Made by a program: the position numbers and the translations under genes | The notes under the pieces: generated by a model | The model's input: the letters and a program-made list of their open reading frames with translations, nothing else | Told to the model about the DNA's origin: nothing | Databases searched by the model: none | From: Kordiimonadaceae bacterium | Lineage (GTDB): Bacteria; Pseudomonadota; Alphaproteobacteria; Sphingomonadales; Kordiimonadaceae | Direction: 5' to 3' | Length of the DNA: 33,152 nt | Assembly: GCA_016765035.1 (NCBI GenBank) | Contig: JAESQS010000325.1 | Span: 1 to 33,152 of the forward strand | Shown here: one piece after another, positions 3,557-27,833 of the stretch | Numbering within the stretch: the stretch's first letter is position 1 | Layout of the letters: each line of letters begins with the position of its first letter

Positions 3557-3742
3557 TTAGACATAACGGAGGCTACTGGTAGACCGTGCCATCATCGTTT
3601 TTTCAGCTTCAACTGCAACATTCTTACATGGCTTACCACAAGCACATGTCTCTTTTTGAATACGGTTATAAGCAACGTGAAAGTCTTTTCCACAATCACA
3701 TGCAACTATAAAACCTCTAAAAATACATTCTTTAATAACCAT
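3557..3742 (-). CDS. Small cysteine-rich (zinc-ribbon-like) protein
   Basis: 61 aa with CDCGKDF...CACGKPC; AGGAG-type RBS upstream (taggagacaatcATG). Confidence 0.55.
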   Translation of the reverse strand: MVIKECIFRGFIVACDCGKDFHVAYNRIQKETCACGKPCKNVAVEAEKTMMARSTSSLRYV

Positions 3743-4012
3743 GATTGTCTCCTATTATTGTGATCAGTTAGGTAAAGAGGAGCAATCACGATGCCACTGT
3801 ATGTAAATATGACTAAGGCACTGATTTAACTATACAATAAATATGTAGTTAGAAGACACTCACCTAACATACCCCCCCTAGTTTGCGAGATTTATTTGCA
3901 TAATGGGAATCTAAAGTGTGCAATCTGCTTCAAACCCCAAAAAGCTGAATCCCCTAACTAATAAAACTATTTATTTTCATAAGGTTACCTTTAACTTCCC
4001 AAAATGCACTGA

Positions 4013-5653: not shown

Positions 5654-7241
5654 GAAAGTTAACCCACTTGCACCGACTGAGCCGATCCTAAAGCCAAAGA
5701 ATTTTAGAGAAAAATGGGGTGGCATTATCGCCGTGCAACTCTTTCTGTATTTTGGGCTTTGTTTTGCAGCAGTAACAGCCTTGCCAAACACCCTCTGGGA
5801 TCCGGAACTCAAAACATACACCTATATAATTGGATCCCTTGGCGCATGGCGATACGGATGGTGGCTCACCCACACTGTGCGCTCTTTCATATACGGTAAA
5901 TTTGTATATCCCCGCATACGCCGTAAAGGCGAGGCTGTTTGGAACAATGGGTGGCGACCAAGACACATTCATTTCATGATGACGACTTATAAAGAGCAGC
6001 GAGAAACCACCGAGCGCGTCATACAGTCTATTGTTCGGGAAATTGAGGCCGCAGGTGTAGCCGGCACTATCTGGCTTGGGTCAAGCGACCCTGTTGACGA
6101 AGAATTAGTGATCAACTTTCTACAACGAATTGCCCCGGAACTAGATTTAAACCTTATCGTAATCCGCCAAAACTCTCCGGGGAAGCGCATGGCCATAGGG
6201 CTTATATTACGGGCTATGAGCCGCCACCGCGTCAAGGATGAAGACTTAGTAGTTTTTATGGATGGCGATTTTATATTGGCACCCGGCTGCCTGACTAAAT
6301 GTCTGCCACTTTTTAAATGCAATCCAAAATTACAAGCCCTGACTACTGACGAGGACGTTGTGTGTATTGGCCCGAAATGGTTTTCTATTTGGCTGACCAT
6401 GCGGTTTGCCCAGCGCCGAATTGCTATGCAATCCCACGCGCTATCAGGCCGTGTACTGACCCTTACGGGCCGTTTATCTGTTTTTCGAGCGTATCACCTA
6501 AAGAAGCTTGCTTTCATTAGACTTCTTGAGGCCGACCATTTGAAGCATTGGCTTTGGGGCGACTTCCGCTTTTTGTCAGGGGACGACAAAAGTACATGGT
6601 ATTATATGCTCAAGACAGGGTCGCTTATGCTCTATGTGCCGGATGCTCTTGGTTATACTGTTGAAGTAGTGGAAGGCAATGGTCTGGAGCGCATGATGCA
6701 AAATATCAGGCGCTGGTCTGGGAACATACTCCGAAACGGAAGCCGCGCTTTGGCACTTGGCCCCCGCCGTATGCCCTTTTTTATATGGTGGTGCCTGCTT
6801 GACCAAAAACTGTCCATGTGGACCATGCTGGTCAGCCCGGTTCTTGCGCTTTTGGTGGCAACACTTAAAACCAGCGCATTCTTAATCGCCTATATTATAT
6901 TCATTGCCGTAACACGCATGTTGCTGTCTTTGTTTTTGTTTGCATACAGTCGGCAAGTGCATCTTTCCTATCCGCTCATTTTATATTTAAACCAGCTCAT
7001 AAATGCGTCGGTGAAAGTCTATTGTATTTTTCGGCTTTCAAAACAAAACTGGGCCAACCGTGGGGGTCAGTCATCGACTAATTCGGCAAGCTGTTGGCAT
7101 CAGCGATATCAGAATTTTATGGCGAGCTATCTGACACTGCTCTTTTGCAGCATACTGGTCAGCGCAATCTTGTTATATAGCGGGCTGGTTACGGCCCCTG
7201 ATCTAGAGCTAACCCTCACAATTCTATTCCGTGGATTCTAG
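5646..7241 (+). CDS. Alg8-like membrane family 2 glycosyltransferase
   Basis: VVFMDGDF, FLSGDDKSTWYYML, RRWSGNILRNGSRAL motifs; multiple TM segments; ATG at 5646 overlaps the preceding stop. Confidence 0.85.
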   Translation: MTEKVNPLAPTEPILKPKNFREKWGGIIAVQLFLYFGLCFAAVTALPNTLWDPELKTYTYIIGSLGAWRYGWWLTHTVRSFIYGKFVYPRIRRKGEAVWNNGWRPRHIHFMMTTYKEQRETTERVIQSIVREIEAAGVAGTIWLGSSDPVDEELVINFLQRIAPELDLNLIVIRQNSPGKRMAIGLILRAMSRHRVKDEDLVVFMDGDFILAPGCLTKCLPLFKCNPKLQALTTDEDVVCIGPKWFSIWLTMRFAQRRIAMQSHALSGRVLTLTGRLSVFRAYHLKKLAFIRLLEADHLKHWLWGDFRFLSGDDKSTWYYMLKTGSLMLYVPDALGYTVEVVEGNGLERMMQNIRRWSGNILRNGSRALALGPRRMPFFIWWCLLDQKLSMWTMLVSPVLALLVATLKTSAFLIAYIIFIAVTRMLLSLFLFAYSRQVHLSYPLILYLNQLINASVKVYCIFRLSKQNWANRGGQSSTNSASCWHQRYQNFMASYLTLLFCSILVSAILLYSGLVTAPDLELTLTILFRGF

Positions 7242-7243
7242 CT

Positions 7244-7258
7244 TTTGCAAAACGCAAA
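7244..7258. promoter_or_regulatory. TTTGC-AAAAC-GCAAA palindrome (putative enhancer/operator)
   Basis: Exact match to recurring TTTGC-N5-GCAAA; about 138 bp upstream of predicted +1 for the algD-like gene. Confidence 0.55.
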
Positions 7259-7362
7259 ACTTCCTTGCAGCTTGCTGACCACACCATTCGCACCCTGCAT
7301 TTCCCCTAAACCAATCACACCATAACCACTTGAAAATACTTATTATTATCCAGCATATGATC

Positions 7363-7377
7363 TGGCACTCATCTTGA
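7363..7377 (+). promoter_or_regulatory. Sigma-54-like element TGGCACTCATCTTGA upstream of the algD-like gene
   Basis: Perfect -24 TGGCAC; -12 is TTGA rather than TTGC, so weaker. Confidence 0.45.
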
Positions 7378-7417
7378 AATATTTCATGTAGGATAATGAA
7401 ATTGAAAGGACACCCCC

Positions 7418-8818
7418 ATGGATGGCGGTCGTTTAAAAAATCACGTAAGACAACAGGTATGGGCACCGGTTTTTCTCGGGCAATTTAGCGTTAGTGTTTT
7501 TGGCCTTGGGTATGTTGGTGCTGTATCCATGGCTTGCTTATCAAAATTAGGGCACCGGATGATCGGAGTTGATATCGATCAAAAGCGCGTTGCCGACATG
7601 GCTGCTGGTAATAACTCGCTAACGGAGCCCGGCCTTGCAGACCTTATCGCCAAAGGGCATTCCCATGGCCTTGTAGACGCTACTACAAATGTGAAAGACG
7701 CTATTCTTCTCAGCGATATATCCCTCATTTCAGTTGGTACGCCAACAAGCGAAAATGGTGCCTGCGATGACGCAGCTATTCGCCAAGTATCTTCGGCCAT
7801 TGGCGCCGCTATCAAAGAGAAAAATAGTTATCACCTAGTCGTCCTCAGGTGCAGTGTTCCGCCCGGCACAACGCTTGGAATTGTTGCGACTGAAATTGAA
7901 AGAGCGTCGGGCAAAAACCTCGGTAACGAGTTTGGCATTTGTTTTAATCCAGAATTTCTGCGAGAGAGTACAGCCGTTGAGGACTTCTTCTCTCCGCCAA
8001 AAACTGTCATAGGGGCCAGCGACGAGAAAGCCGGTAAAATGTTAGCCCTGCTCTACAATCAAGTTGATCAAAATCCTATAATGACAGATATCGGCACTGC
8101 AGAAATGGTGAAATATGTGAACAATACTTGGCACGCCAACAAAGTGGTGTTCGCGAATGAAATAGGCCGCCTCTGCAAGGCTATGCATTTGGACGGCCAT
8201 AAAGTCATGGATATCTTTGTGCAAGACACCAAGCTGAACTTGTCTTCTTACTATCTTAAGCCTGGGTTTGCCTACGGCGGTTCGTGCCTCCCCAAGGAGG
8301 TCCGTGCGATGAAACATTTGGCAAACACACGCGGTGTTTCAATACCACTCATAACAGCCCTGGGGCACTCAAACACCGAACAGATTTTAAACGCTCTAGA
8401 TATAATTGAACACACAGGGAAAAGAGAGATTGGATTTCTGGGCATCACTTTCAAGCCCGAAACCGGCGACATAAGAGAAAGCCCATTTCTCAAACTATTC
8501 ATTCTATTGGATGAGGCCGGATACAAAGTGCGTTTTTATGATCAAGAATTCCCAACGGGGAACGATCTTAAACAGCAAATTCGTTATTTGAAGAACACCG
8601 ACCCTCGTTTCGCCAAACTGGCAGATAAGCTCCTACAAAGCCAGTGCAACCATATCAGTGAGCTATGCGACAATAGTAGTCTACTGGTGGTTTCTCACCG
8701 CACCTCAGCCTATGAGGACATCGTTAATTGGCGACGTAGAGAAGTGATGGTTGTTGATCTTGTTGGTTTAGGCGGCATCAACGAAACCCACCACAGTATA
8801 CTCGAACTGGCACGCTAA
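7418..8818 (+). CDS. GDP-mannose/UDP-sugar 6-dehydrogenase, AlgD-like
   Basis: VFGLGYVGAVSMACLSKLGH Rossmann motif; CFNPEFLRESTAVEDF; YYLKPGFAYGGSCLPKEVRA catalytic Cys region typical of AlgD. Confidence 0.88.
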   Translation: MDGGRLKNHVRQQVWAPVFLGQFSVSVFGLGYVGAVSMACLSKLGHRMIGVDIDQKRVADMAAGNNSLTEPGLADLIAKGHSHGLVDATTNVKDAILLSDISLISVGTPTSENGACDDAAIRQVSSAIGAAIKEKNSYHLVVLRCSVPPGTTLGIVATEIERASGKNLGNEFGICFNPEFLRESTAVEDFFSPPKTVIGASDEKAGKMLALLYNQVDQNPIMTDIGTAEMVKYVNNTWHANKVVFANEIGRLCKAMHLDGHKVMDIFVQDTKLNLSSYYLKPGFAYGGSCLPKEVRAMKHLANTRGVSIPLITALGHSNTEQILNALDIIEHTGKREIGFLGITFKPETGDIRESPFLKLFILLDEAGYKVRFYDQEFPTGNDLKQQIRYLKNTDPRFAKLADKLLQSQCNHISELCDNSSLLVVSHRTSAYEDIVNWRRREVMVVDLVGLGGINETHHSILELAR

Positions 8819-9255
8819 TGAATGCGGGCTATAAAAAACCAGTACCAATTACCCACCTTTCACCTGTAAGCTGGGGGGAACGTCCCCTAGTGGAACAGCG
8901 GAGGGCCTACGCCTTGGATTATGATTTGCTCAATATGCTTCGGAAAAACCAAAGCAACGACAAATTTATTCACCTTATGGAGCAGTGTGTTTCTGACATA
9001 AAAGAGTCGCTTCATATTGTCGGCGACGGCCTAGCCAATAATGATTTTCTCACTATCGAAAGAGGTAGCCATAAACTGAAAAGCCTTGCTGGTACCTTTG
9101 GCCTAGAAGACACCTTTAAGCTGGCGGTCCTAACCAACGAAGCCCACCATAAAAACGAGCCAGAAAGTCTGATTAAAAAGCACGCTACCGACCTACTCGC
9201 ATCCGGACAATATAGCCTACGCACCTTGCAGGTTTATATCTCAGGAATTGAGTAA
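8818..9255 (+). CDS. Stand-alone Hpt (histidine phosphotransfer) protein
   Basis: GSHKLKSLAGTFGL Hpt motif; start overlaps upstream stop (TAATG). Confidence 0.8.
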   Translation: MNAGYKKPVPITHLSPVSWGERPLVEQRRAYALDYDLLNMLRKNQSNDKFIHLMEQCVSDIKESLHIVGDGLANNDFLTIERGSHKLKSLAGTFGLEDTFKLAVLTNEAHHKNEPESLIKKHATDLLASGQYSLRTLQVYISGIE

Positions 9256-9315
9256 GCAGCCCATAGGCGCTTATTGTAAAGACAGCACCACCACTGCCGC
9301 AAAGTGGTAATGATC

Positions 9316-9330
9316 TTTGCAATAAGCAAA
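9316..9330. promoter_or_regulatory. TTTGC-AATAA-GCAAA palindrome
   Basis: Exact match to recurring motif; about 126 bp upstream of predicted +1. Confidence 0.55.
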
Positions 9331-9333
9331 GCC

Positions 9334-9348
9334 TTTGCACATTGCAAA
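9334..9348. promoter_or_regulatory. TTTGC-ACATT-GCAAA palindrome
   Basis: Exact match; exact reverse complement of the site at 19356; 18 bp centre-to-centre from the 9316 site. Confidence 0.6.
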
Positions 9349-9422
9349 GAATACAGCCCTCCCCCCCTTTTTCTAAAAAATTATAACCCATTGATTTTAA
9401 AATATATTTCAAAAGTTTGCAC

Positions 9423-9437
9423 TGGCGTGTGCTTTGC
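9423..9437 (+). promoter_or_regulatory. Sigma-54-like promoter TGGCGTGTGCTTTGC upstream of hybrid kinase
   Basis: GG-N10-GC spacing; TTGC at -12; predicted +1 about 9449. Confidence 0.6.
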
Positions 9438-9476
9438 GTTGCACTACAGAAATGAGTAATGCAACAGGAGTATGTT

Positions 9477-11765
9477 TTGACAGAAGCCAATAGTGCCATA
9501 AATACCTCCCACAAGACCTGGTCTGCTAGATTTAGATTTGTACCTTACGATTGGCCCCTTGCCGTTCAAGTGGCCGCTGTCATGTTAACAATATCAATTG
9601 CTGCTGGCTTCGTGGCTTGTGAACTAGTTCGCGGTTACGAACGTTCTGTTCAAGAAAGCATCTTAGAACGCGAACTAGAATATACATTACCGCTTCTGGC
9701 CTCGAACATCACTGCCAAGCAAACAATGTTACCCGCGCAAATGCTCGCGTACCAACTGGAAACTCAAGGGTTACAAAACCAAAACATAGCCCACCTTATA
9801 GTCACAGATGCCAGCGGCATCGCTATGGCTGAATGGTCTAGAGAAGATGTAACAACAAGAGCAAGATTTCAGGCTTCAAAACCCATATTTTCTAATAACG
9901 GCACCCAGATAGCAACGCTAACTCTAGCCATGCGCGCCGACTTGATAGAAAAGGAAACAGACCGTTCTGCCGCCACTACATTCCTGTCGGTGTTTGGCGT
10001 TATGCTCTTGTTGACCTTCTGTATCTGGGTTTGGATACAGCGGCGCGTTATCTCACCTATAAGTGCGCTGGCACGCAGAGCAACAAAAGGGCGGCTTGCA
10101 ACACTCCCCAAATGGATGCAATCCAGAAGGCTATCGCCTGAACTTCAACATTTATCGCGAGAAATTCATAGTGCCTTTGACCTAAAGGACCGACATACAG
10201 CTGAGATTGCTACTGCGCGCAGAGCTGCAGATGAACATACCCGCAGTAAATCAAAGTTCATTGCCTCCATCAGCCACGAAATTCGCACACCGTTGAATGG
10301 CGTTTTGGGCGCTCTCAACCTCCTGAAAGGAACGGAGCTTAATAACGGCCAAAACGCCCTTGTGAATGTAGCCCATTCTAGCAGTGAGCTCTTACACACC
10401 TTGCTAAACGACATCATCGATCTGGCCAAAGCTGATAACGGGAAACTAGACTTGGAAGTGAAACCCTTCTCGCTCCACGACACGCTTAAAAGCACCAAAG
10501 ATTTCTGGATGTACCAGTTCTATGCCCTCAATCGTTTCCTAACCTTAAACATAGACGACAATGTACCCAACCGAATATTTGGCGACGAAGGCCGGGTCAA
10601 ACAGATCCTCAACAACTACATCTCTAACGCCAAAAAATATGGCGGTGACGGCAGTGTAACGATAAAAGTCTCATGCACACCTTCACAGGGCACTCAGGAA
10701 TTCTCCATCCACTTTGCAGTAGAGGACCGCGGCAAAGGCGTAAAAAAAGAAGACCAGCAGATGATATTTAAAGAGTTCGCCCAGCTTGAAGGTCATTCCG
10801 ACGACACTCAAGAAGGCGCTGGCCTCGGCCTTGCTGTTTGCCGTAAATTATCAACTGCAATGAATGGTAAAGTTGGTGTAGATAACAATAAAAATAACGG
10901 CAGCATTTTCTGGTTTGAAGCGCCATTCACTGCGGACACTGAAGCGCCCAAAGTCAATACGTCAACCTCAAAAAACTTCCCACCCATTATAACGCCCAAC
11001 GGTGCAAAGCCTATTGTTCTGGTGGCTGAAGACTTGGCTACAAACCGTCTTGTTGTTGGTCAATATCTTGAGAAGTTTGGCTGTGAAGTTGAAATGGCAG
11101 AGAACGGCATAGAAGCAATTCACGCAGCAGCATCTAAGAATTTTGACGCTATCTTAATGGACATCTGTATGCCCAAGATGGACGGCATGGATGCTACAAA
11201 ACGCATCCGAGAAGGTTTCGGTGTATCAGACGATGTCCCTGTTATAGCGCTATCTGCTAATGCAATGCCTGCACAGCTAGCAGAGCAGGAGAAGATCGGC
11301 TTTGACTTTATAATTGCTAAACCCTTTAAAGAAGAGGCCTTATACCAAGCATTAAAAGAATGCATGGCCAACAATAGCGCTGACAGATTATTGGACCAGA
11401 AAAGACTTCAAAAAAATCTCGCGGTTCAACCAGAAAACAGCCCGCCAATTCAGTTGGAAGAATCAATCGAACAGCTTGTTGATACGAGCAAAAAATTGAT
11501 GCATTCCGTCTATATGAAAGATTTTGCTGCTGTTGAAATTACCAGCCAAAAAATCGACCAAAATAGTGCCAACTTGGGGCTTACAGCGTTAGAAAAAAAA
11601 TGCGCTAAAATAAGACAATCCTGCCGTTCCATGCAGCTTGACAAAGTTGAAGCATTGATGCCCAGTTTCAAAGCACTGGTATCACTTTCTGTTGAACAAT
11701 TAGATGCAGTAACCGCCAATGGAAAAACGCTGGCATCGCCCTCTCAGCAGAGGTCAAGGCTGTGA
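9477..11765 (+). CDS. Hybrid sensor histidine kinase with receiver domain
   Basis: SHEIRTPLNGVLGAL H-box, GAGLGLAVCRKL, receiver VAEDLATNRL...ILMDICMPKMDGMDA...AKPF. TTG at 9477 has an AGGAG RBS; the ORF track start ATG 9459 does not. Confidence 0.88.
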   Translation: MTEANSAINTSHKTWSARFRFVPYDWPLAVQVAAVMLTISIAAGFVACELVRGYERSVQESILERELEYTLPLLASNITAKQTMLPAQMLAYQLETQGLQNQNIAHLIVTDASGIAMAEWSREDVTTRARFQASKPIFSNNGTQIATLTLAMRADLIEKETDRSAATTFLSVFGVMLLLTFCIWVWIQRRVISPISALARRATKGRLATLPKWMQSRRLSPELQHLSREIHSAFDLKDRHTAEIATARRAADEHTRSKSKFIASISHEIRTPLNGVLGALNLLKGTELNNGQNALVNVAHSSSELLHTLLNDIIDLAKADNGKLDLEVKPFSLHDTLKSTKDFWMYQFYALNRFLTLNIDDNVPNRIFGDEGRVKQILNNYISNAKKYGGDGSVTIKVSCTPSQGTQEFSIHFAVEDRGKGVKKEDQQMIFKEFAQLEGHSDDTQEGAGLGLAVCRKLSTAMNGKVGVDNNKNNGSIFWFEAPFTADTEAPKVNTSTSKNFPPIITPNGAKPIVLVAEDLATNRLVVGQYLEKFGCEVEMAENGIEAIHAAASKNFDAILMDICMPKMDGMDATKRIREGFGVSDDVPVIALSANAMPAQLAEQEKIGFDFIIAKPFKEEALYQALKECMANNSADRLLDQKRLQKNLAVQPENSPPIQLEESIEQLVDTSKKLMHSVYMKDFAAVEITSQKIDQNSANLGLTALEKKCAKIRQSCRSMQLDKVEALMPSFKALVSLSVEQLDAVTANGKTLASPSQQRSRL

Positions 11766-13114
11766 AAATACTCCAACAGGCATCCGCATGGATTAACTTC
11801 AGGAAAAGGCGTTTTAGCCAGAACATGCCCGGGGCTAGTCCGACTGTTTCCCCGCAGGAACATCTGGAAATACTCAACAGATTCTCCCTAGCTCTTGGGG
11901 CTTTAGACACCGAAGAGGACTTGGCTTGGTACGTGGCACAGGAAGTTGTTGGCCGTCTTGGTTTTGTGGACTGCGTTTATTACCTTTATAGCGCTGATGA
12001 AAACTGTCTGGTGCAACGTGCAGCAATTGCCAGCAAAAACCCCCGGGGGCACGAGATCACCAACCCCCTTCACATACCAATGGGGCAAGGCATTACCGGG
12101 TCTGTAGCCTCTTCTTTCCGGCCAGAAATTATCGCTGATGTCACTCAGGATACGCGTTATATTACTGACATAACCCCCGCTGGTTCAGAAATATGTGTGC
12201 CCATCGTTCAAAATGACAAACTCATCGGCGTGCTAGACTGTGAGCATATTGAAAAAGCAGTCTTCACCAAGGAGCATTTGAACCTTTTGACAACGGTTGC
12301 CAGTTTCGCCGGAACAAAAGCAGCCGAGCGCCGCGGCGTAAACAAGGTCGCCGACCTACGCGTGCAACGTAATAAAGCCCTTATGGAGAAACAGCTGGCC
12401 AATGAATCTCAGGCAGCCTTTTTTTCAGCAGTATCTCATGAATTTCGCACACCTTTAAATGCTGTTATCGGCCTATCCGACTGTCTTGCAAAGGCAGAAG
12501 ACGAAGCACTTACCCCAGCTCAAATTGGTGCCTTTTCTACCCACATACATGATGCTGGTGAGCAATTGGAAACACTGGTGAATAACGCCTTGGACATAGC
12601 CGCAGCACATGCACATGACCCCAAGGCCAATACAGAACTAACTGAGATTACACCAAGCTTGGAAAAGTGTATTGAACAAGCTCAAACACAAGCACTTCAG
12701 AAAAAAATAACAATACAGACACAAGGAAGCAGGCTTCTAAAGTCGATCCTTTTTGATCCGACCCATTTTAAAAAAATCATCCAAAATCTATTAGACAATG
12801 CCGTTAAATTTAGCACAGATAATTCCGTCATCCGCGTCAAAACTAAGGTGAATACTCACCATGAAAAATCCATACTAACCATTTCAATTAGCGACGAAGG
12901 AAAAGGCATAGCCCCTGACGCCCTCAATCATATTTTTGACCCTTTCTTTGCAGAAGATGCGGGTGCCCGCTCGCCGAACGACAACACAGGATTGGGACTT
13001 ACAATTGCCAAGCAATTTGCCAAACATAATAACGCATCCATAAAAGTCACAAGTATCTTGGGCAAAGGTTCAGTCTTCTCTCTCAACATTCCCCTCCAAC
13101 AAGCCCTCACCTAA
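11762..13114 (+). CDS. GAF-domain sensor histidine kinase
   Basis: GAF-like N-terminus (GQGITGSVA...CVPIVQNDKLIGVLDCEH), SHEFRTPLNAVIGLS, NTGLGLTIAKQFA; GTG start overlapping upstream TGA. Confidence 0.88.
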   Translation: MKILQQASAWINFRKRRFSQNMPGASPTVSPQEHLEILNRFSLALGALDTEEDLAWYVAQEVVGRLGFVDCVYYLYSADENCLVQRAAIASKNPRGHEITNPLHIPMGQGITGSVASSFRPEIIADVTQDTRYITDITPAGSEICVPIVQNDKLIGVLDCEHIEKAVFTKEHLNLLTTVASFAGTKAAERRGVNKVADLRVQRNKALMEKQLANESQAAFFSAVSHEFRTPLNAVIGLSDCLAKAEDEALTPAQIGAFSTHIHDAGEQLETLVNNALDIAAAHAHDPKANTELTEITPSLEKCIEQAQTQALQKKITIQTQGSRLLKSILFDPTHFKKIIQNLLDNAVKFSTDNSVIRVKTKVNTHHEKSILTISISDEGKGIAPDALNHIFDPFFAEDAGARSPNDNTGLGLTIAKQFAKHNNASIKVTSILGKGSVFSLNIPLQQALT

Positions 13115-13179
13115 CATGTCGCACTATAGGGGTTTATTGAACCCTTCTACTTGCAAAGAATCGACCAAAACCCTGTCAT

Positions 13180-13197
13180 AATACCATGGGTGGTATT
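13180..13197. terminator. Possible bidirectional terminator hairpin AATACCA-TGGG-TGGTATT
   Basis: Stem-loop between convergent genes, followed by T-rich sequence. Confidence 0.4.
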
Positions 13198-13224
13198 TAT
13201 TTCCAGATACGGCAGCCAATATAT

Positions 13225-15276
13225 TCAATTGAGATTATTATCCTCCAGAGCATGACGCACTGATTTAAATGTTTTCCTATATTCTGCATTCATCGGGTGA
13301 AGTGAGATCGCTTTTACAACCAACTGCAGAGCGCGTTGGGGCTGATCCCTGCTGATCGCCATATGGTACGCTAAGTTATTCAGCGCCATATGATTATTTG
13401 GATTTTGCTGCAACAGCTTTTCATAGGTGGCAATAGACAGATCAATATCATTTTTCCCTTCTGCAAAAGCTGCCAACAAAGAAAGTCTCTCCCGCAGTAA
13501 TTGCTCCCCCTCTGGGTGCGTAACAGTCAGGTTTCGTGCCTTCATTTCCAATAATGTAACGCCCTGCCACCAATGCACTAATTGGTTCGCTGAGATTTTG
13601 TTTCCATCTTCATAAAAGCCCACAGCAAGACGTAATGTTTCAACAGCTCGGTTGGGGCGATGGGCCACTGCAGATGAAAGTGCTATAAAGACAGCTTCGG
13701 TGTCCCCAAAATAGAAATAGGCTGTTGCCGCTAACAATTGGGCGGCAGAATGGCCGGGCACCCAAGTTAACACAGGGCGCAAAATTATAAGCGCCTCAAC
13801 CATGCTTTCATCGTCACCTGCACGCAAAAGCGCCTGTGCCAAAACAATACGCCATAAGACAGCTTCCTCTGGGCTATGTTCACGTAATTGTTTCGCCAAA
13901 AGCAAATTCGGCTTAAAACCCGCGTCAATCGCCTGACGCCACAAACCTAGATCACCGACAAAGCTGGATAGTGTGTTAGATATACATAGCTGATCATTGG
14001 CACCACAGGACAATTGTCGGTGGTGAGGCATAGCCCCAAAAGACATGATACCCTTGTATCCCACCCCCTCGGCTAACCGTTCATACTTATGGGCAAGTGC
14101 CTTTTCCCCTAGCGATGACAATAGGGACGCTTTAAATTGGTGGGCAAGGCCATTGCCATCAAGCAATGTCCCCATATCATTCAAGGCATCAATCAACTGG
14201 CCAGCCTGTAAGTCTTCCCCTGACAGCCCTTCAAGTAATACCGCCCATTTGGATGCCGCATAGGCACCATGCCGTTCCTGATACTGCGCTTCATCAAACT
14301 CAAAGGGGCATATTTGGTTCCCGCGCCGTTTTGCCAAACATACGGCGAAAATCACTTCTGCGGGCATCATTCCTTGCGCTTTTCTAGACAAAAACTCACC
14401 GTCCAGTGACTTTAAATCCCCCTGCATCCACATAAGATGCGCCAAACGAATGAGCAATTGTGATGTCATGGCCCTACCGGGTTGATCTAGCATGATGGTC
14501 GCAACCACCAATTTTCCTTTTGCGGCAAGCAGTGACGTCGCGGTCGCAAGGTCGTCGAATGACATTGTCGCCGCAACTGCCATTGCAACAGGCAAGATCA
14601 TTTCATCCTGAGTGGGCTCCGCGATGTAAGTAACTAACTGCTCCATACTCCCGCTGGCAGGCGCGGCAAGCGGCAGTTGTTCCTCTCCGTCTTGGTCCTC
14701 AACAGGTGTATTATCTACCGCTAATATACTCGAGCGTTTCAAAAGAAGCCTGTGCGCCAATAACAGCGAGAAAGTTGAACCGTTGTTTTCTTCAAGCTGC
14801 TTAAAGTCGAACTCAATTTCTTTATCTTCGGCTAACGCGACAGACGCAGCAAGTGCTATCAACCCAGACTGTGTAGTTTTAAACTGCCTTGCCATAGCTC
14901 TAGCCTGCGCCCATTTCCCATGCACCAAATAGGCTGAGGCCATTTCCAAACCCGCGCTTGTATCTTCTCCTAATTGCAATCCTTGCTTAGCCAGCACAAT
15001 TGCTTGTCCGAGATGTGCATTGCTTGGCAGCGGTACATGTTTACGAGATTTTGTGAGCAAATGCACCGCATCTGCATCCTGCGCGCTACGGCAGGCTGTG
15101 CTGTGAAAATATAATGTTAGTGTGGTTATTACCCGAGCATTCAGACCTTTTTCTTCCGCCGCTTTTGCCTCTCTTAACCAATCCTCACATTGAGCCGCCG
15201 CTGAATAATCTACAGCCACGTAGCTTCCAATGGCGACACATCCACCCAGCAATAATCCAATCAGCAATTTTTTCAT
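13225..15276 (-). CDS. TPR-repeat protein with N-terminal membrane/signal segment
   Basis: 683 aa; MKKLLIGLLLGGCVAIGSYVAV N-terminus; C-terminal TPR LLQQNPNNHMALNNLAYHMA...PQRALQLVVKAISLHP. Confidence 0.75.
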   Translation of the reverse strand: MKKLLIGLLLGGCVAIGSYVAVDYSAAAQCEDWLREAKAAEEKGLNARVITTLTLYFHSTACRSAQDADAVHLLTKSRKHVPLPSNAHLGQAIVLAKQGLQLGEDTSAGLEMASAYLVHGKWAQARAMARQFKTTQSGLIALAASVALAEDKEIEFDFKQLEENNGSTFSLLLAHRLLLKRSSILAVDNTPVEDQDGEEQLPLAAPASGSMEQLVTYIAEPTQDEMILPVAMAVAATMSFDDLATATSLLAAKGKLVVATIMLDQPGRAMTSQLLIRLAHLMWMQGDLKSLDGEFLSRKAQGMMPAEVIFAVCLAKRRGNQICPFEFDEAQYQERHGAYAASKWAVLLEGLSGEDLQAGQLIDALNDMGTLLDGNGLAHQFKASLLSSLGEKALAHKYERLAEGVGYKGIMSFGAMPHHRQLSCGANDQLCISNTLSSFVGDLGLWRQAIDAGFKPNLLLAKQLREHSPEEAVLWRIVLAQALLRAGDDESMVEALIILRPVLTWVPGHSAAQLLAATAYFYFGDTEAVFIALSSAVAHRPNRAVETLRLAVGFYEDGNKISANQLVHWWQGVTLLEMKARNLTVTHPEGEQLLRERLSLLAAFAEGKNDIDLSIATYEKLLQQNPNNHMALNNLAYHMAISRDQPQRALQLVVKAISLHPMNAEYRKTFKSVRHALEDNNLN

Positions 15277-16670
15277 GGTGCCTTTTCCTGTTTGATTTTA
15301 ACTGCCTGAAGAAATTGAAGAACTGTCCCCAACCGCGTAGCGTTTGGCACCAAGTTGGTCTCTACAAATTGAAAGCGGATTACACCTTGAGCTAGATAAA
15401 TTGGCAACGCAGATGCAGAAACTCGCACTTCAGCAACAGACTGTATTTGGTTATAGTTACGCACTGTCATATTTTCGACTGTAAGGCCGGTGCCAAGCTG
15501 CGAGGGAAGCTGCACAGACGTATGCCACCCAAGGGCTTCAAAGCATTTTTGGCTGGAATGCTGTGCAGCTTTGCGCGTGTCAGAATGATACATCACTGTA
15601 ACAAGAATTTCTCTGTCACTAGCGGCATTACTATAGAGCCGACGGGCAGAAAAATCTGCTCCAAGTATACGTGTTTCACTTCCAGGAATTGTTATAGGAC
15701 GCCCAACCCACCCATCCATATAAACTGGGAGAAACCCAGGGGGAAAAAGCCTAACGTCATGATTGGGCATTTGAATGAAGGCTATTAGAAGTGCCCCGGC
15801 AGTCCACCCGATAAGCACAGCGCCCCCACCTATTGCCTTGGCGGGCCAAATGAACTGGACCTTTAAAGCTGCCGAGCTGCACAATATAGGCAAAAGCCAA
15901 ATCAGTGGCATAACCACCCAACCCAGAAAATCATGGAACCCTGCGGCAATATTCTCCGGGGCATTGAAATTGACACCGATTAAAACCGCAAAGCGCCCTA
16001 AATTAAGGAAAAAGGCAATCGGCACTGCGGCTAAGGTGATGCAAATACGGTGTTTCAAAGACCTATTACCAGTCGCAGCCACGACTAAACACCCTAGCAC
16101 CGCTGGTGAAAATAGAAGCGTACCGCTACAATCACTATTGACCGTCACAGCCTCACCACCAGATATAATCTGCGGCCCGAATTGGTACACAGGCATAGAA
16201 AAAAATTGACCAATAGCAACGAACAACGAGGCTTCTTGGTGCGCTAGCCATACACCGACAGTTGCTTCGACACCTGAGGGAGGTGGCACAAAGAAACACA
16301 GGCACAAAAAGGCACAAAAATAGTGCGTCGATGAGCAAGTGAACAAATGCACTGAAATCCAGATGACCAGTAAAACACCAGCAAAAATCATTAGTTTATC
16401 AAGGTGAAAATTCATCCCCACCAAAATACTCAGAACAACTAAGCCTAAAACACCCTTTTGCCAAAAATGACTTGGCATTCTGCGCGTCAGGTTGCCTCTG
16501 TCGGCAGACAAAATCATCAGGGCGCTTACAAATGCAAGCAGAAGCAACGCCCATCGGTCCGTTGTAAAACTGCTACTGATTGTAGGAACCAACAAAACCC
16601 CACACAAAAGGGAGGCTAAGCCCAAATGGAAAAATTGTGCCGTTTGTCTGCTAAAAAAAGTCGTAACCAC
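15273..16670 (-). CDS. Exosortase with C-terminal EpsI/DUF3485-like region
   Basis: Multi-TM; candidate triad Cys (NSDCSGTLLF), Arg (FFLNLGRFAVLI), His (GFHDFLGW); next to PEP-CTERM-like substrate. Confidence 0.85.
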   Translation of the reverse strand: MVTTFFSRQTAQFFHLGLASLLCGVLLVPTISSSFTTDRWALLLLAFVSALMILSADRGNLTRRMPSHFWQKGVLGLVVLSILVGMNFHLDKLMIFAGVLLVIWISVHLFTCSSTHYFCAFLCLCFFVPPPSGVEATVGVWLAHQEASLFVAIGQFFSMPVYQFGPQIISGGEAVTVNSDCSGTLLFSPAVLGCLVVAATGNRSLKHRICITLAAVPIAFFLNLGRFAVLIGVNFNAPENIAAGFHDFLGWVVMPLIWLLPILCSSAALKVQFIWPAKAIGGGAVLIGWTAGALLIAFIQMPNHDVRLFPPGFLPVYMDGWVGRPITIPGSETRILGADFSARRLYSNAASDREILVTVMYHSDTRKAAQHSSQKCFEALGWHTSVQLPSQLGTGLTVENMTVRNYNQIQSVAEVRVSASALPIYLAQGVIRFQFVETNLVPNATRLGTVLQFLQAVKIKQEKAP

Positions 16671-16674
16671 CCTC

Positions 16675-17505
16675 TTATTCCTTACGCCGGCGGCGTTTCC
16701 AAATAAGATACAAAGGACCTAAAAGGGCGGCGATGGGGCCCGGCAGGGGCACAGCGTTTGCCACCAGCATCTGAACATTAGCAACTCCAATGTCCATCGC
16801 CACAACTATGTCATTATAATCTTCGTCACCACCGCCAAAAAGGTCTTCTGCGCCTATAAGTAGATACGGGCTGTCTGGCGTAGCTAATACGATAAAATGC
16901 TCAATTCCATCCGGGTTTAACAGCATATCTGTATAGTAAGTATTCGTGCCGCCATTGGCTCCATTTGCAATCAAAAACAGGTTGAGTTGAGTACCGCTAT
17001 CAAACTCACCCAAATCCACAAAATCACCCGCAGCTACAGGCGCATTAAGAGACCTATAATCACTGCCTGTCGGGTCCAAATAGGAAGACGAAGAACTGGC
17101 ATCAGGGAAAATAAGCCCAGCGTCGCCTGATAATCCAGCACTACTTTCACCCGTGTAAACACCAAAGCTGTTATGATAGCCTGCCCCCTCACCTATGAAA
17201 TATATACGAACATCTGAGGCCTCACTTAAATATAAGTCATTGGAACTCAGCGCTATTGAGGAGAGGTTTTGAAGCGGTTGCTTTTCAGTAAGCACCGTAT
17301 TCACTGCATCTTGTAAATCGGGCAAAGCGTTTTCGAAGAAGTCCAATGCTGCAGCATCAGAACCCGCGAGCTGTACGTTATCAATAGGTGTTAAACCAAA
17401 TGGCCTTGCGCTGGATTGCACGGGAGACACTGTTGCTGCAAAACTCGAATTGGCACAAACCGCCCCTAACAAAAAAGCCATAAGAAGTTTTAGAGATCTC
17501 TGCAT
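16675..17505 (-). CDS. DUF4114-like secreted protein with PEP-CTERM-type sorting tail
   Basis: Signal peptide; DUF4114-like GGGDEDYNDIVVAMDIG; C-terminal VPLPGPIAALLGPLYLIWKRRRRKE (motif + TM + basic tail). Confidence 0.82.
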   Translation of the reverse strand: MQRSLKLLMAFLLGAVCANSSFAATVSPVQSSARPFGLTPIDNVQLAGSDAAALDFFENALPDLQDAVNTVLTEKQPLQNLSSIALSSNDLYLSEASDVRIYFIGEGAGYHNSFGVYTGESSAGLSGDAGLIFPDASSSSSYLDPTGSDYRSLNAPVAAGDFVDLGEFDSGTQLNLFLIANGANGGTNTYYTDMLLNPDGIEHFIVLATPDSPYLLIGAEDLFGGGDEDYNDIVVAMDIGVANVQMLVANAVPLPGPIAALLGPLYLIWKRRRRKE

Positions 17506-17507
17506 AT

Positions 17508-18539
17508 CTATTTACCTTGCAAAAACTTAAGCTGCACAAACGGTTGGAATACACCCCCAAGAAGTTGCAACGTTGGAGCAGCGGCCTTAACGACTTGATT
17601 CCAACTTTCCAGACCATTCTCAGGCACAAAAACAATACCATCGGGCATGAGTTCAAGGTCAGGAACACGGCCTCTCAATATGTCTATTGCATTCACTAAT
17701 ATTAGCTGCCCTTCAAGGGCAGTATGGGTTCGAATGACCCGCACTTGCGACATAAGAGCCGTTGAACTCAAATGGCCTCCTACACTTGTTAAGGCTTTCA
17801 ACAGTGTCATAGGTTCATTTGAAAAAGGAACCACACCCGGATGCTCGACTGCCCCCAGCACGTAGGCTTTGTTATCAGCTTTACTCGGCACAAAAAGCGT
17901 GTCGCCTGACTGTAGCTGAATATTATGGGCCGACTTTCCCTCTATCAATAATGCCTGTATATCGACGGCGGCAATCTCCCCGCCACGCCTCAAGCGCGCA
18001 CCTCTTAAGTGGGCAAGGGTAGATAAGCCCTGCCCAAGGCTCATGGCCTGGATAAGGTTAGTGGGACCATCCAAATAAATAACGCCGGGCTTATTAAACT
18101 CACCAAGCAAATATACAGGGCGGCTTCTGTGGACCACGATTTGCACAACTACCCATGGCTCTAAAAACTGCGTAGAAAAACCCTGTTTTATTATGGTTTG
18201 GATTTCGCCAACAGTTTTTCCAGCCACCTGAATACGCTCCATAACCGGCACTTGAATAAATCCAGCACCATCAACGGCAACCAAAAGGTCATCCAGTCCG
18301 TCCTCACCAAAAATATTGATAGATAGTTTATCGCCTCCCCCTACTCGATATACTGCTTCCTGCGGCTCTGCTTCTGCCCCATTGATAGATATAGGCTCGA
18401 TTTTAGCTACAGCAGGCGTGACCCGTGCCCCGTACGCCAAAATATCCTTTTCAAAGGCGGCATCCCCTTTATCGAAAGTCTGTGTTGATAAGGCATTGCT
18501 GCACCCCATAAGTAGAAACAGCATAAGAACAGGTGACAA
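17508..18539 (-). CDS. Wza/GumB-like polysaccharide export lipoprotein (start uncertain; same frame continues upstream into sugar transferase tail)
   Basis: Lipobox LLMGC (Cys at about 18501-18503); YRVGGGDKLSINIFGED and repeated SLBB-like segments. Confidence 0.8.
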   Translation of the reverse strand: MSPVLMLFLLMGCSNALSTQTFDKGDAAFEKDILAYGARVTPAVAKIEPISINGAEAEPQEAVYRVGGGDKLSINIFGEDGLDDLLVAVDGAGFIQVPVMERIQVAGKTVGEIQTIIKQGFSTQFLEPWVVVQIVVHRSRPVYLLGEFNKPGVIYLDGPTNLIQAMSLGQGLSTLAHLRGARLRRGGEIAAVDIQALLIEGKSAHNIQLQSGDTLFVPSKADNKAYVLGAVEHPGVVPFSNEPMTLLKALTSVGGHLSSTALMSQVRVIRTHTALEGQLILVNAIDILRGRVPDLELMPDGIVFVPENGLESWNQVVKAAAPTLQLLGGVFQPFVQLKFLQGK

Positions 18540-18556
18540 CCGGACTATTACTGGTA

Positions 18557-19237
18557 TCCGCCTGAATAATTTTTTTGCCAAGAAAAGTATTGTGAGCCAT
18601 ATGATAATCAAATCATACGGCACAGAGCGATTATAGAGATATTGTAGCTCTGCTTCGAACCGTGCAGACCAATCTGAAACCACCTTGTCAGCATTATCAA
18701 ATATACACACTTGAGCTAGCTCGTTAAACCAGGGCGTACTCCCAGTCGCCGCGAAAAGCCGGGAATTTTTTGTTCCAGTTCTGTTTGTAACTCAATCGCG
18801 ATCGGCCTTGGCCCGACTAAGGCCATCTCGCCTCGTACGACATTGACCAACTGTGGCAGTTCATCGAATTTCAACTCTCGCAAATAACGACCAATGAAGG
18901 TTATCATTGGGTCCGATTTATTGACATTACGAGCGCGCTTGACATCTTTGTCTGCCCCCAATTTCATAGTTCGGATCTTATAAGCCGTGAAAATTTCCCC
19001 GTTCAGTCCTGGCCGACGTTGTTTGAAGATAAACGGGCCCTTAGACGTCACGCGCACCAAAATGAACAACAACGCAAAAAGCGGCAACAAAACAGCCAAC
19101 GCGAATACGGCGATTAGGCGTTGCAGTGGATACCAGATAGGGCTGACCTTATTAAGTGTCTCCCAGCGATATGGTTGCCAACCACACGTAACATCGTGGT
19201 TAAAGGGGACCCTATTCTCAGTTGAACTGTGGAGCAT
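18557..19237 (-). pseudogene. Bacterial sugar transferase (WcaJ/initiating glycosyltransferase), apparent 1-nt deletion near 18718-18722
   Basis: KIRTMKLGAD..., LRELKFDELPQLVNVVRGEMALVGPRP, RPGLTS*; tail LAQVCIFDN...DWSARFEAELQYLYNRSVPYDLIIIWLTILFLAKKLFRR continues in a different frame. Confidence 0.8.
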
Positions 19238-19275
19238 GTAACGCCTCGCAATTTATTTACTAGGCTTCCACCGCC

Positions 19276-19290
19276 GCAATAGACATGCCA
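19276..19290 (-). promoter_or_regulatory. Sigma-54-like promoter TGGCATGTCTATTGC (minus) upstream of sugar transferase
   Basis: GG-N10-GC spacing; predicted +1 about 19264, 27 nt leader containing GAGG. Confidence 0.6.
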
Positions 19291-19355
19291 CCAACGCAGT
19301 TCTTGAAGAGCGTTGATTCTAAAGGAGTTATTGCTTCACGTTGGTATTTCTCTGC

Positions 19356-19370
19356 TTTGCAATGTGCAAA
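19356..19370. promoter_or_regulatory. TTTGC-AATGT-GCAAA palindrome
   Basis: Exact match to recurring motif between two divergent sigma-54-like promoters. Confidence 0.6.
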
Positions 19371-19383
19371 CATGCGAGGACTT

Positions 19384-19398
19384 TTGCCAATCTGGCAA
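19384..19398. promoter_or_regulatory. Variant palindrome TTGCCA-ATC-TGGCAA
   Basis: Perfect inverted repeat between the two canonical sites; spacer differs from the consensus. Confidence 0.4.
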
Positions 19399-19413
19399 TT
19401 TGCAAAGTGCAAA
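19399..19413. promoter_or_regulatory. TTTGC-AAAGT-GCAAA palindrome
   Basis: Exact match to recurring motif. Confidence 0.6.
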
Positions 19414-19474: not shown

Positions 19475-19489
19475 TGGCACATGCCTTGC
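19475..19489 (+). promoter_or_regulatory. Sigma-54-like promoter TGGCACATGCCTTGC
   Basis: Exact match to TGGCAC-N5-TTGC; predicted +1 about 19501. Confidence 0.7.
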
Positions 19490-19501: not shown

Positions 19502-20764
19502 ATGGAACATTCAATCAAATCTATAGTATTAGCAGGTGCTGCACCTGATACCGGAAACCACGGCGTTACGGCCCTGTGCCAGTCTACTGTTTCCGGGCTT
19601 GCGGAACGTGGCATCGACCATTTCACCATTCTTGATAACGGGGCAGATACCAGAACAATAGATCAGCTCAATTGGCTTGCTGACGCGCATATATCCCGCC
19701 TGCCATTCAAAGCCGGGAAACGTGTATACCAACCTGCCAACATGCATAACATCCGGTTGCGCCAACTGTTTGGGCTGCTCTCGCCAACACTGTAAGCCAT
19801 CAGGGCAGCGGATGCGGTTCTAGATGTTAGCGGCGGCGACAGTTTTACTGACATGTATGGTTCCGCCCGTTTTGAACAAATAACCATACCAAAGAAAATC
19901 GCTATTTCTTGTGGCACACCCCTGATCTTATTGCCGCAAACCTATGGCCCCTTCAAATCCATAAAAGCCCGAAACACAGCGAGGGCCATCATCAAAGCCA
20001 GCACTGCGGCCTTTGCACGGGACAGTGATAGTTTTGCCCGCCTCAGAGATCTAGTAGGAGCAGACTTTAATCCAGCAATTCATAAACAGGGCATTGATCT
20101 AGCCTTTGGCTTGCCGTGGGAGCAGCCATCAGAGCCACCCCGTAAACAGCATGTTGGCATTAATGTAAGTGGGCTTTTGTGGAACAACAACTGCAGCCGT
20201 TCACAATTCGCTCTGAAAGCGGACTATCAGCAAACGCTCCTTAGCTTTTGCCAGCATATATTAGAAAATGAAAATCTGGACATCTTGTTGGTCCCGCATG
20301 TTACGCCAGCCAACAAATATGAATGTGATCTGTTTGCCAGCGAAATGCTCAAAAAACAATTGCCGTGGCGCTATCGCCACCGCGTTCACATTGAAACGAC
20401 AGCAAAGACGCCGTCACACTTAAAGTCCGTCATTGCAAATACCTGCTGGTTTACAGGTGCCCGTATGCACGCAACAATCGCAGCTCTTTCTACAGGCGTA
20501 CCAGTAGTCAACGTGGCATACAGCGCTAAGGCAAAGGGCGTTTTTTCTGGCTGCGGTGTGGGGGACTGTGTCTTAGACATGCGCCACCTCACAACTGCAA
20601 ATATGGTGACTGGCCTTATCAGGTGCTTCAATGAGCGTTCCCACCATAAAGCGGTACTTTGTCGCAAGCTTCCCTTTTTAAAACAGCAGTGGGCCGCCCA
20701 GCTCAACGCCATCAACCAAGCTATTTTAACATCACCCAAAAAACAGGGGTGTTGCTATGCTTAA
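19502..20764 (+). pseudogene. Polysaccharide pyruvyl transferase family protein interrupted by in-frame TAA at 19793-19795
   Basis: Same frame on both sides: AGAAPDTGNHGVTALCQS...LLSPTL*AIRAADAVLDVSGGDSFTDMYG...PLILLPQTYGPFKS...GARMHATIAALSTGVPVVNVAYSAKAKGVF. Confidence 0.82.
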
Positions 20765-27250: not shown

Positions 27251-27332
27251 GCATCCTCTGAGGCCTATTCGGGCCATGGCACAAGCTTTGCTCCTTTCTT
27301 GGTATGAACCACACCTTGGAAGGAGTTTTTTT

Positions 27333-27833
27333 ATGATTTTTACCACTGTAGGAACCCAGCTTCCTTTCCACCGACTGATAGACGTAATCGACATTTGGTC
27401 TTTAGAACAAGATGTTAGAGGATGTTTTGCGCAAATCGGGAATGATGGAAACCCACCCCAAAACATGAAGTTTTCAAACACATTGGATCCTGCCCAATTT
27501 GCAAACCAAATTGCAAAATGCAAAGTCGTCGTCTCCCATGCTGGCATAGGCACAATTCTAACAGCCTTACAGTACGGCAAACCAATAATTGTAATGCCAA
27601 GGCTCGCTAGATACGGCGAACACAGAAATGATCACCAGCTAGCAACAGTGGCAAACCTTGAAGGCCGAGCTGGCATTCATGTGGCTCACAATGAACATGA
27701 CCTAAAGGCTCTTCTCAATAAGGCTCATGACCTCGGCACAAACACCAATGTTACATCAGCGGCAGAGCCAGAACTTATTCAGGCCATTGATTCATTTATC
27801 GGCGCAAGGCAGACAGGAATTATATATGCCTAA
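27333..27833 (+). CDS. Alg13-like catalytic subunit (glycosyltransferase family 28 C-terminal domain)
   Basis: MIFTTVGTQLPFHRLIDVID; VVVSHAGIGTILTALQYGKPIIVMPRLARYGEHRNDHQ. Confidence 0.88.
   Translation: MIFTTVGTQLPFHRLIDVIDIWSLEQDVRGCFAQIGNDGNPPQNMKFSNTLDPAQFANQIAKCKVVVSHAGIGTILTALQYGKPIIVMPRLARYGEHRNDHQLATVANLEGRAGIHVAHNEHDLKALLNKAHDLGTNTNVTSAAEPELIQAIDSFIGARQTGIIYA

Follow-up and report, generated by a model that had tools for sequence, protein, structure and literature searches.

Putative LuxO-type operators at the sigma-54 promoters of a Kordiimonas-type exopolysaccharide and exosortase locus

The DNA analysed here (contig JAESQS010000325.1, 33,152 nucleotides; the window) is an exopolysaccharide (EPS) locus of a Kordiimonas-type alphaproteobacterium (Kordiimonas group, marine; Kordiimonadaceae), and carries five copies of the palindrome TTTGC-N5-GCAAA. 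These palindromes are probably upstream activating sequences (UAS) for a sigma-54 activator of the LuxO/SypG type (receiver, AAA+ and Fis domains), most likely LuxO2, a LuxO paralogue encoded on contig C293 of the same genome; we give this reading, together with the relay mechanism proposed below, a probability of about 0.8. The analysis establishes the identity of the motif, its spacing, its conservation, its co-occurrence with the luxO2 gene, and the presence of RpoN and of the phosphorelay domains.

A sequence-only reading of the window had listed five exact copies, all intergenic; each of them was found, and none falls inside a likely gene. The 7244 copy sits just past the alg8 stop (7241), the 9316 and 9334 copies lie between a histidine phosphotransfer (HPt) gene (end 9255) and a hybrid kinase gene (9459), and the 19356 and 19399 copies lie between the divergent genes pgt (start 19237) and pvt (start ~19502). 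The 9334 and 19356 copies are, as that reading said, reverse complements over 15 bp. The boxes, listed without strand, are:

7244..7258: LuxO-type box before ugd, the nucleotide-sugar dehydrogenase gene; exact; the weak site 7363 is 105 bp away; genome G019 likewise has a box upstream of ugd
9316..9330: LuxO-type box before the kinase operon; exact; sigma-54 site 9423 is 93 bp away
9334..9348: LuxO-type box before the kinase operon, with the complete TTGCA-N3-TGCAA; exact; sigma-54 site 9423 is 75 bp away
19356..19370: LuxO-type box, shared divergent enhancer; exact; 66 bp from the minus-strand promoter and 105 bp from the plus-strand promoter
19393..19405: one-mismatch box overlapping the 19399 box; 15.4 bits
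19399..19413: LuxO-type box, shared divergent enhancer; exact; 62 bp from the plus-strand promoter and 109 bp from the minus-strand promoter
27511..27523: sixth LuxO-type box, within the pssE coding sequence and past the sigma-54 promoter of that gene; 9 of 10 pssE genes contain an exact box
3896..3908: weak box (2 mismatches) upstream of alg44, tentative; 9.6 bits; 104 and 99 bp from the sigma-54-like sites 4013 (+) and 3796-3782 (-)

Dinucleotide shuffles of the window (n=100) gave a mean of 0.15 copies of TTTGC-N5-GCAAA and a maximum of 1, compared with the 5 observed. Genome-wide pattern searches, with the reversed motif as control, found 23 copies in the 3.36 Mb assembly (360 contigs, 76% complete) versus 6 for the control, and 5 of the 23 are inside the window, which makes up about 1% of the genome (binomial 3e-6). 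Nor are the five spacer bases arbitrary: the copies tend towards TTTGCA-N3-TGCAAA. For the stricter TTGCA-N3-TGCAA the genome has only nine matches, against 0 for the reversed control, and the window holds four of the nine, at 9335, 19357, 19400 and 27511. Three of the five original copies contain it in full, and in the other two (7244 and 9316) one half is degenerate at one base; the three central bases are 84% A/T across 23 intergenic boxes of orthologous loci. The copy at 27511-27523, TTGCAAAATGCAA, inside pssE and accompanied by a sigma-54 site at 27277, had been missed by the sequence-only reading, which had instead put forward an 8/10 variant at 3895. The latter is weak as a match, with 39 such two-mismatch matches in the window versus 37 expected; it does, however, lie between two divergent sigma-54-like sites. 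Among the exact copies checked elsewhere in the genome, those in murI (C246), pyrE (C354) and modA (C137) were rejected as regulon members, and the copy on C293 lies in the end of fdhD, 370 bp before luxO2. Many box-promoter composites outside EPS loci were set aside as chance, being in long reading frames with GC-rich spacers or having non-consensus boxes.

The published Vibrio LuxO UAS is TTGCAWWWTGCAA, a 13-bp inverted repeat TTGCA-WWW-TGCAA (PMC10162802), and LuxO sites found by chromatin immunoprecipitation in V. cholerae include ttgcaaaatgcaa (PMC10328515). The window motif conforms to this consensus. The palindrome, which had been described as not assignable to a known regulator, is therefore assignable, because its fuller form TTTGCA-N3-TGCAAA matches the published operator. 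The boxes also stand at the distance of LuxO operators, about 50-130 bp upstream of -24/-12 promoters. The UAS of SypG, the LuxO paralogue that drives the V. fischeri syp polysaccharide locus, overlaps that of LuxO (PMC10162802).

The sigma-54 promoters of the window are:

7363..7377 (+): weak sigma-54-like promoter of ugd-hpt, TGGCACTCATCTTGA, with -12 element TTGA; TGGC-N8-TTGA at the same -55 position before ugd in G019
9423..9437 (+): sigma-54 promoter TGGCGTGTGCTTTGC of the kinase operon; equivalent box-bearing promoters precede the H-NOX/kinase/LuxO2 operons of relatives
19276..19290 (-): sigma-54 promoter TGGCATGTCTATTGC of pgt-wza-ctermP-xrt-tpr; conserved in relatives
19475..19489 (+): sigma-54 promoter TGGCACATGCCTTGC of the pvt-wzx-...-pssD operon; zero mismatches; conserved in relatives
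27277..27291 (+): sigma-54 promoter TGGCACAAGCTTTGC between pssD and pssE; zero mismatches; present in all 10 aligned pssD-pssE gaps

The boxes had been placed about 95-145 bp upstream of sigma-54-like promoters. The association holds, but the distances were too long: the gap to the -24 element is 105 bp for 7244, 93 and 75 bp for 9316 and 9334, and 105 and 62 bp for 19356 and 19399. The divergent site at 19290-19276, 66 and 109 bp from the last two boxes, had been overlooked.

Eleven relatives carry an exosortase orthologue with the same gene order, giving with the window 12 orthologous polysaccharide/exosortase loci. When these were searched with the outside, published LuxO consensus at no more than one mismatch, 39 of 84 box matches lay 40-115 bp upstream of one of the 45 sigma-54 sites. 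Random placement put a mean of 0.76 matches in this range (maximum 8 in 1000 runs), and the other 59 palindromes permuted from the same letters had at most 1 each. In the pgt-pvt region of five genomes (the window's own, G000, with G017, G005, G003 and G023), a pair of boxes separated by 36-44 bp keeps distances of 62-69 and 102-111 bp to each of the divergent promoters; one side or one box is recognisable in G020, G016, G012, G006 and G018. At the kinase operons the boxes are 51/83 bp or 61/74/93 bp away from the promoter. Conservation at orthologous intergenic regions had been set beforehand as a test by which the idea could fail, and the box-to-sigma-54 spacing is kept there. The earlier proposal that the palindromes serve as UAS of a dimeric NtrC-type enhancer-binding protein is supported at the sequence level by the motif identity, this conserved spacing and the co-occurring LuxO paralogue. 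Elsewhere, G003, G006 and G018 have two or three boxes downstream of a receiver-HPt gene (e.g. L104 4338, 4359); these boxes precede a small gene whose secreted product is chaperone-like (IDFFLRPTNVSMVEDW...) and which may also belong to the regulon.

The genome encodes RpoN and at least eight sigma-54 activators (bacterial enhancer-binding proteins, bEBPs). Two of these activators, encoded on C139 and C293, score highest with NF041946 (LuxO), at 572 and 535 bits respectively, with the next best models at 394 and 411. Both have the Group I architecture (PF00072, PF00158, PF02954) and the sigma-54 loop of the AAA+ domain, GSFTGA in C293 and GAFTGA in C139. The C293 protein, LuxO2 (5738-7198), has LuxO 5ep0 as its best PDB match (9e-123). 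In 30 family genomes, with second copies counted at E<=1e-130, core LuxO is present in 30/30. Of the 11 relatives with the locus, 10 encode a second LuxO within it, adjoining the hybrid kinase in most; no second copy at that threshold was found in the 18 genomes that lack the locus (Fisher 2e-7; 3e-6 if a split copy in G021 is included). The usual arrangement of the relatives is luxO2 in a box-controlled operon with an H-NOX nitric-oxide sensor and the hybrid kinase. In G021, which lacks the exosortase locus, the LuxO2-type copy falls into two reading frames in the assembly and adjoins another EPS locus (L181, G021:C2:270000-289000; 4098-9378) with H-NOX, a hybrid kinase, a sigma-54 site and boxes at 7932, 13537 and 15193. 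The C293 protein groups with the second copies in a single clade (support 97/95), in which C293 and G020 are placed on long branches. The LuxO2 helix-turn-helix, GSIPKAAxSLGVSPSTIYRKK, is close to that of Aeromonas LuxO, GNIPKAALLEISPSTIYRKK, and its recognition helix (SPSTIYRKK) is closer to Aeromonas LuxO than that of core LuxO (NPSTLYRKL). The residues critical for DNA binding in V. cholerae LuxO include S423, Y426, R427 and K428 (PMC11407668); PSTIYRK, common to LuxO2 and Aeromonas LuxO, fits the order of these residues in a comparison with the residue list alone. Upstream of luxO2 itself are a sigma-54-like site (5666) and a cluster of several weak boxes, as would be expected for autoregulation.

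The relay components of the window are:

8818..9255 (+): stand-alone HPt phosphotransfer protein with a putative LuxU-like role; Pfam PF01627 26.5 bits, cut-off 24.6
9459..11765 (+): membrane hybrid histidine kinase, HisKA-HATPase-REC (Pfam)
11762..13114 (+): GAF histidine kinase without REC and HPt (Pfam); 39% identity to the GAF-kinase part of the relatives' hybrid kinase

In the proposed mechanism, a model as regards binding, phosphotransfer and the order of the relay, the direction of control (activation), the signal and expression, the hybrid and GAF kinases would pass phosphate via HPt to LuxO2, the HPt step being provided by the 8818-9255 protein in the window and by the HPt domain of the hybrid kinase in relatives. 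LuxO2~P would then bind the boxes and activate the sigma-54 promoters of the kinase operon and of the divergent pgt and pvt operons, with the ugd, alg44 and pssE promoters as probable further targets and with positive feedback on the kinases and luxO2. Under such shared control the export, exosortase, sorted-protein and glycosyltransferase genes would be switched on together.

The main activator of the boxes could be core LuxO (C139 here) or some other bEBP instead of the locus-linked paralogue, which we consider rather unlikely. Being present throughout the family, core LuxO could bind the same boxes, as V. fischeri LuxO and SypG share overlapping UAS (PMC10162802), and in G017 (Kordiimonas aquimaris) an exact LuxO box lies about 100 bp upstream of core luxO (G017:C1:491596-491608), which suggests that this gene may be autoregulated. 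It is the second paralogue, however, that tracks the locus and sits in it and whose recognition helix is nearer to Aeromonas LuxO; genomes with core LuxO only are without intergenic composites of a box and a consensus sigma-54 site, and the core luxO of the window's genome has no box with 0-1 mismatch nearby. Several further points weigh against LuxO2 control of the boxes. The C293 and C139 proteins fall below the NF041946 equivalog cut-off of 800 bits and are not filed as LuxO, so that LuxO2, at 535 bits, is taken as a relative and not as a LuxO orthologue; luxO2 is unlinked to the locus in this assembly, where contig breaks and 76% completeness hide its context; the 7363 site is without the GC of the -12 element; and the scoring matrix used for the bit scores and the set of 23 boxes was trained on these same loci, the 39/84 test being independent of it.

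Taken as sequence alone, the palindrome is a generic inverted repeat, and it might belong to a repressor or another dimeric regulator with sigma-54 proximity incidental. The constant distances to two divergent sigma-54 promoters at once, seen in five genomes, the specificity of the TTGCA half-site among 60 permutations and the co-occurrence of the boxes with the LuxO paralogue make this highly improbable. Scarcely credible is an assignment to PrsR, the activator of the PrsK/PrsR/PEP-CTERM system (Haft et al. 2006), although the architecture is the same, an enhancer motif and a sigma-54 motif near PEP-CTERM-like and EPS genes (PMC1569441). The spacing alone is similar to that of the window boxes, the mean distance between the PrsR motif and the promoter motif being 63 bp (PMC1569441). 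In the part of that source available to us, PrsR motif 1 is given as 17 nt ending in TTTACA (PMC1569441), and when this motif was reconstructed as a palindrome, the window gave no match to it with up to 2 mismatches allowed; no protein of the 76%-complete genome reaches the PrsR cut-off of TIGR02915 (best 368 vs 502.6 bits). The PrsR-like bEBP suggested by the sequence-only reading as candidate regulator is thus not borne out, and LuxO2 is preferred.

The pssE gene combines the intragenic box with a structured promoter region:

27290..27326 (+): conserved hairpin that overlaps the -12 element and holds the Shine-Dalgarno sequence in its 3' arm; U7 and the pssE ATG come next; -16.8 kcal/mol, z -4.0

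Six of 14 pairs of the hairpin show compensatory changes (9 sequences), and the G026 hairpin folds poorly. In every relative (10 gaps aligned) TGGCAYnnnnnTTGCT overlaps the hairpin between pssD and pssE. The sigma-54 promoter overlapping a covarying hairpin and U-tract (27277-27332) looks like an internal terminator or a ribosome-site lock. In 9 of 10 genomes a box is found inside the gene, some 230-248 bp past the promoter, and it occupies either of two registers, which are 15-19 nt apart. Synonymous resampling gave a chance expectation of 2-11% per genome in the nine genomes having the box; since each single genome is weak, the case rests on the 9/10 presence and the two registers, which also disfavour retention by the protein sequence alone, with shared ancestry as a caveat. 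The arrangement suggests a downstream enhancer and a promoter that would bypass an internal terminator. Read-through RNA from pssD would form the hairpin, with termination or a hidden ribosome site as the outcome, and RNA begun at the pssE promoter would start within the hairpin, lose its 5' arm and escape. We tentatively suggest, as a possibility held with less confidence than not, that at pssE the activator of the other boxes acts from a downstream position within the gene, its target being a sigma-54 promoter that forms part of a terminator-like hairpin. The locus would then possess a way round an internal stop that is under the activator's control, and synonymous codon choice would preserve the intragenic enhancer.

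The order of the box-controlled operon in relatives is H-NOX, a GAF-kinase-receiver-HPt hybrid and LuxO2. H-NOX was found in 11 of the 30 genomes (the ten relatives with in-locus LuxO2, plus G021) and was not detected in the window's genome or G019, both incomplete assemblies. In the window the membrane hybrid kinase occupies the H-NOX position, and the GAF kinase has lost the receiver and HPt of the relatives' hybrid, a separate HPt gene being present. HnoX-HahK of V. fischeri feeds SypF and LuxU, and thereby SypG (PMC12369376), and in the portions consulted for V. harveyi and V. parahaemolyticus the H-NOX input enters at LuxU (PMC3759921, PMC6759604). Nitric-oxide control may by analogy be proposed for the relatives and is unsupported for the window's own organism.

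The first part of the window contains alg44 and alg8-like genes, ugd, the HPt protein and the two kinases; the minus-strand set consists of tpr, the exosortase, a protein with a VPLPG sorting tail, wza and pgt, and the plus-strand set of pvt, wzx, cofB, wzy, glycosyltransferases, pssD, pssE, gt2b, wzz and two receiver proteins. The exosortase scores above the cut-off of PF09721 (68.8 bits), the EpsH type, and none of the named exosortase classes matched it at its own cut-off in a profile comparison. The sorted protein (16675-17505) ends in VPLPGPIAALLGPLYLIWKRRRRKE and has 68% identity to its counterpart in Kordiimonas aquimaris JCM 16665, for which reason the organism is called Kordiimonas-like. 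The pvt gene (polysaccharide pyruvyl transferase-like, 19502-20764) reads as two frames (19502-19795 and 19853-20764); the tblastn matches of relatives show the same apparent split, which is probably an undetected linking stretch and not damage. A small cysteine-rich open reading frame of 61 aa (MVIKECIFRGFIVACDCGKDFHVAYNRIQKETCACGKPCKN...) at 3557-3742 (-) has the sigma-54-like site 3796-3782, divergent from alg44, and shares with alg44 the weak 3896 box.

The closest known systems agree with the locus in part. Like Vibrio LuxO-qrr, it has the operator sequence, sigma-54, paired boxes about 50-110 bp upstream of -24/-12 promoters, a receiver-AAA+-Fis activator (closest solved structure LuxO) and HPt relay components; unlike it, the locus is alphaproteobacterial, the bEBP is below the equivalog cut-off and the targets would be EPS, export and exosortase operons instead of Qrr RNAs, for which no Rfam match at the gathering threshold was found in the window, the luxO contigs of this genome or four stretches of relatives. 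The likeness to V. fischeri SypG-syp (PMC12369376) is one of circuit architecture: a LuxO paralogue encoded in a sigma-54-controlled polysaccharide locus, hybrid kinases with HPt steps and, in 10 relatives, an H-NOX gene that shares an operon with the kinase. The boxes here, in contrast, fit the LuxO consensus and not that of SypG, TTCTCANNNTGMDWN; the glycosyltransferase set is different, an exosortase and a sorted protein are added, and the window's genome has no detected H-NOX. The PrsK/PrsR PEP-CTERM regulon (PMC1569441) likewise joins an NtrC-family activator to an enhancer motif and sigma-54 promoter at EPS/PEP-CTERM-like genes, but with a different motif and bEBP family, and mostly at single sorted-protein genes versus whole EPS operons here. 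Within the limited library searched, no link of LuxO to Kordiimonas EPS or of H-NOX to exosortase was found.

Until now the LuxO/SypG-type switch has been familiar chiefly from the quorum sensing and biofilm control of Vibrio, and the present reading would extend its operator and sigma-54 logic from the Vibrionaceae to alphaproteobacteria. It would also tie to this logic the exosortase-type EPS loci, for which only the PrsR model was previously available. The pssE gene offers a concrete case for intragenic downstream enhancers and promoter-in-hairpin control. The recurring linkage of H-NOX, hybrid kinase, LuxO paralogue and EPS locus, the same parts arranged as in the squid symbiont Vibrio fischeri, offers a testable candidate nitric-oxide-to-matrix circuit in culturable Kordiimonas.

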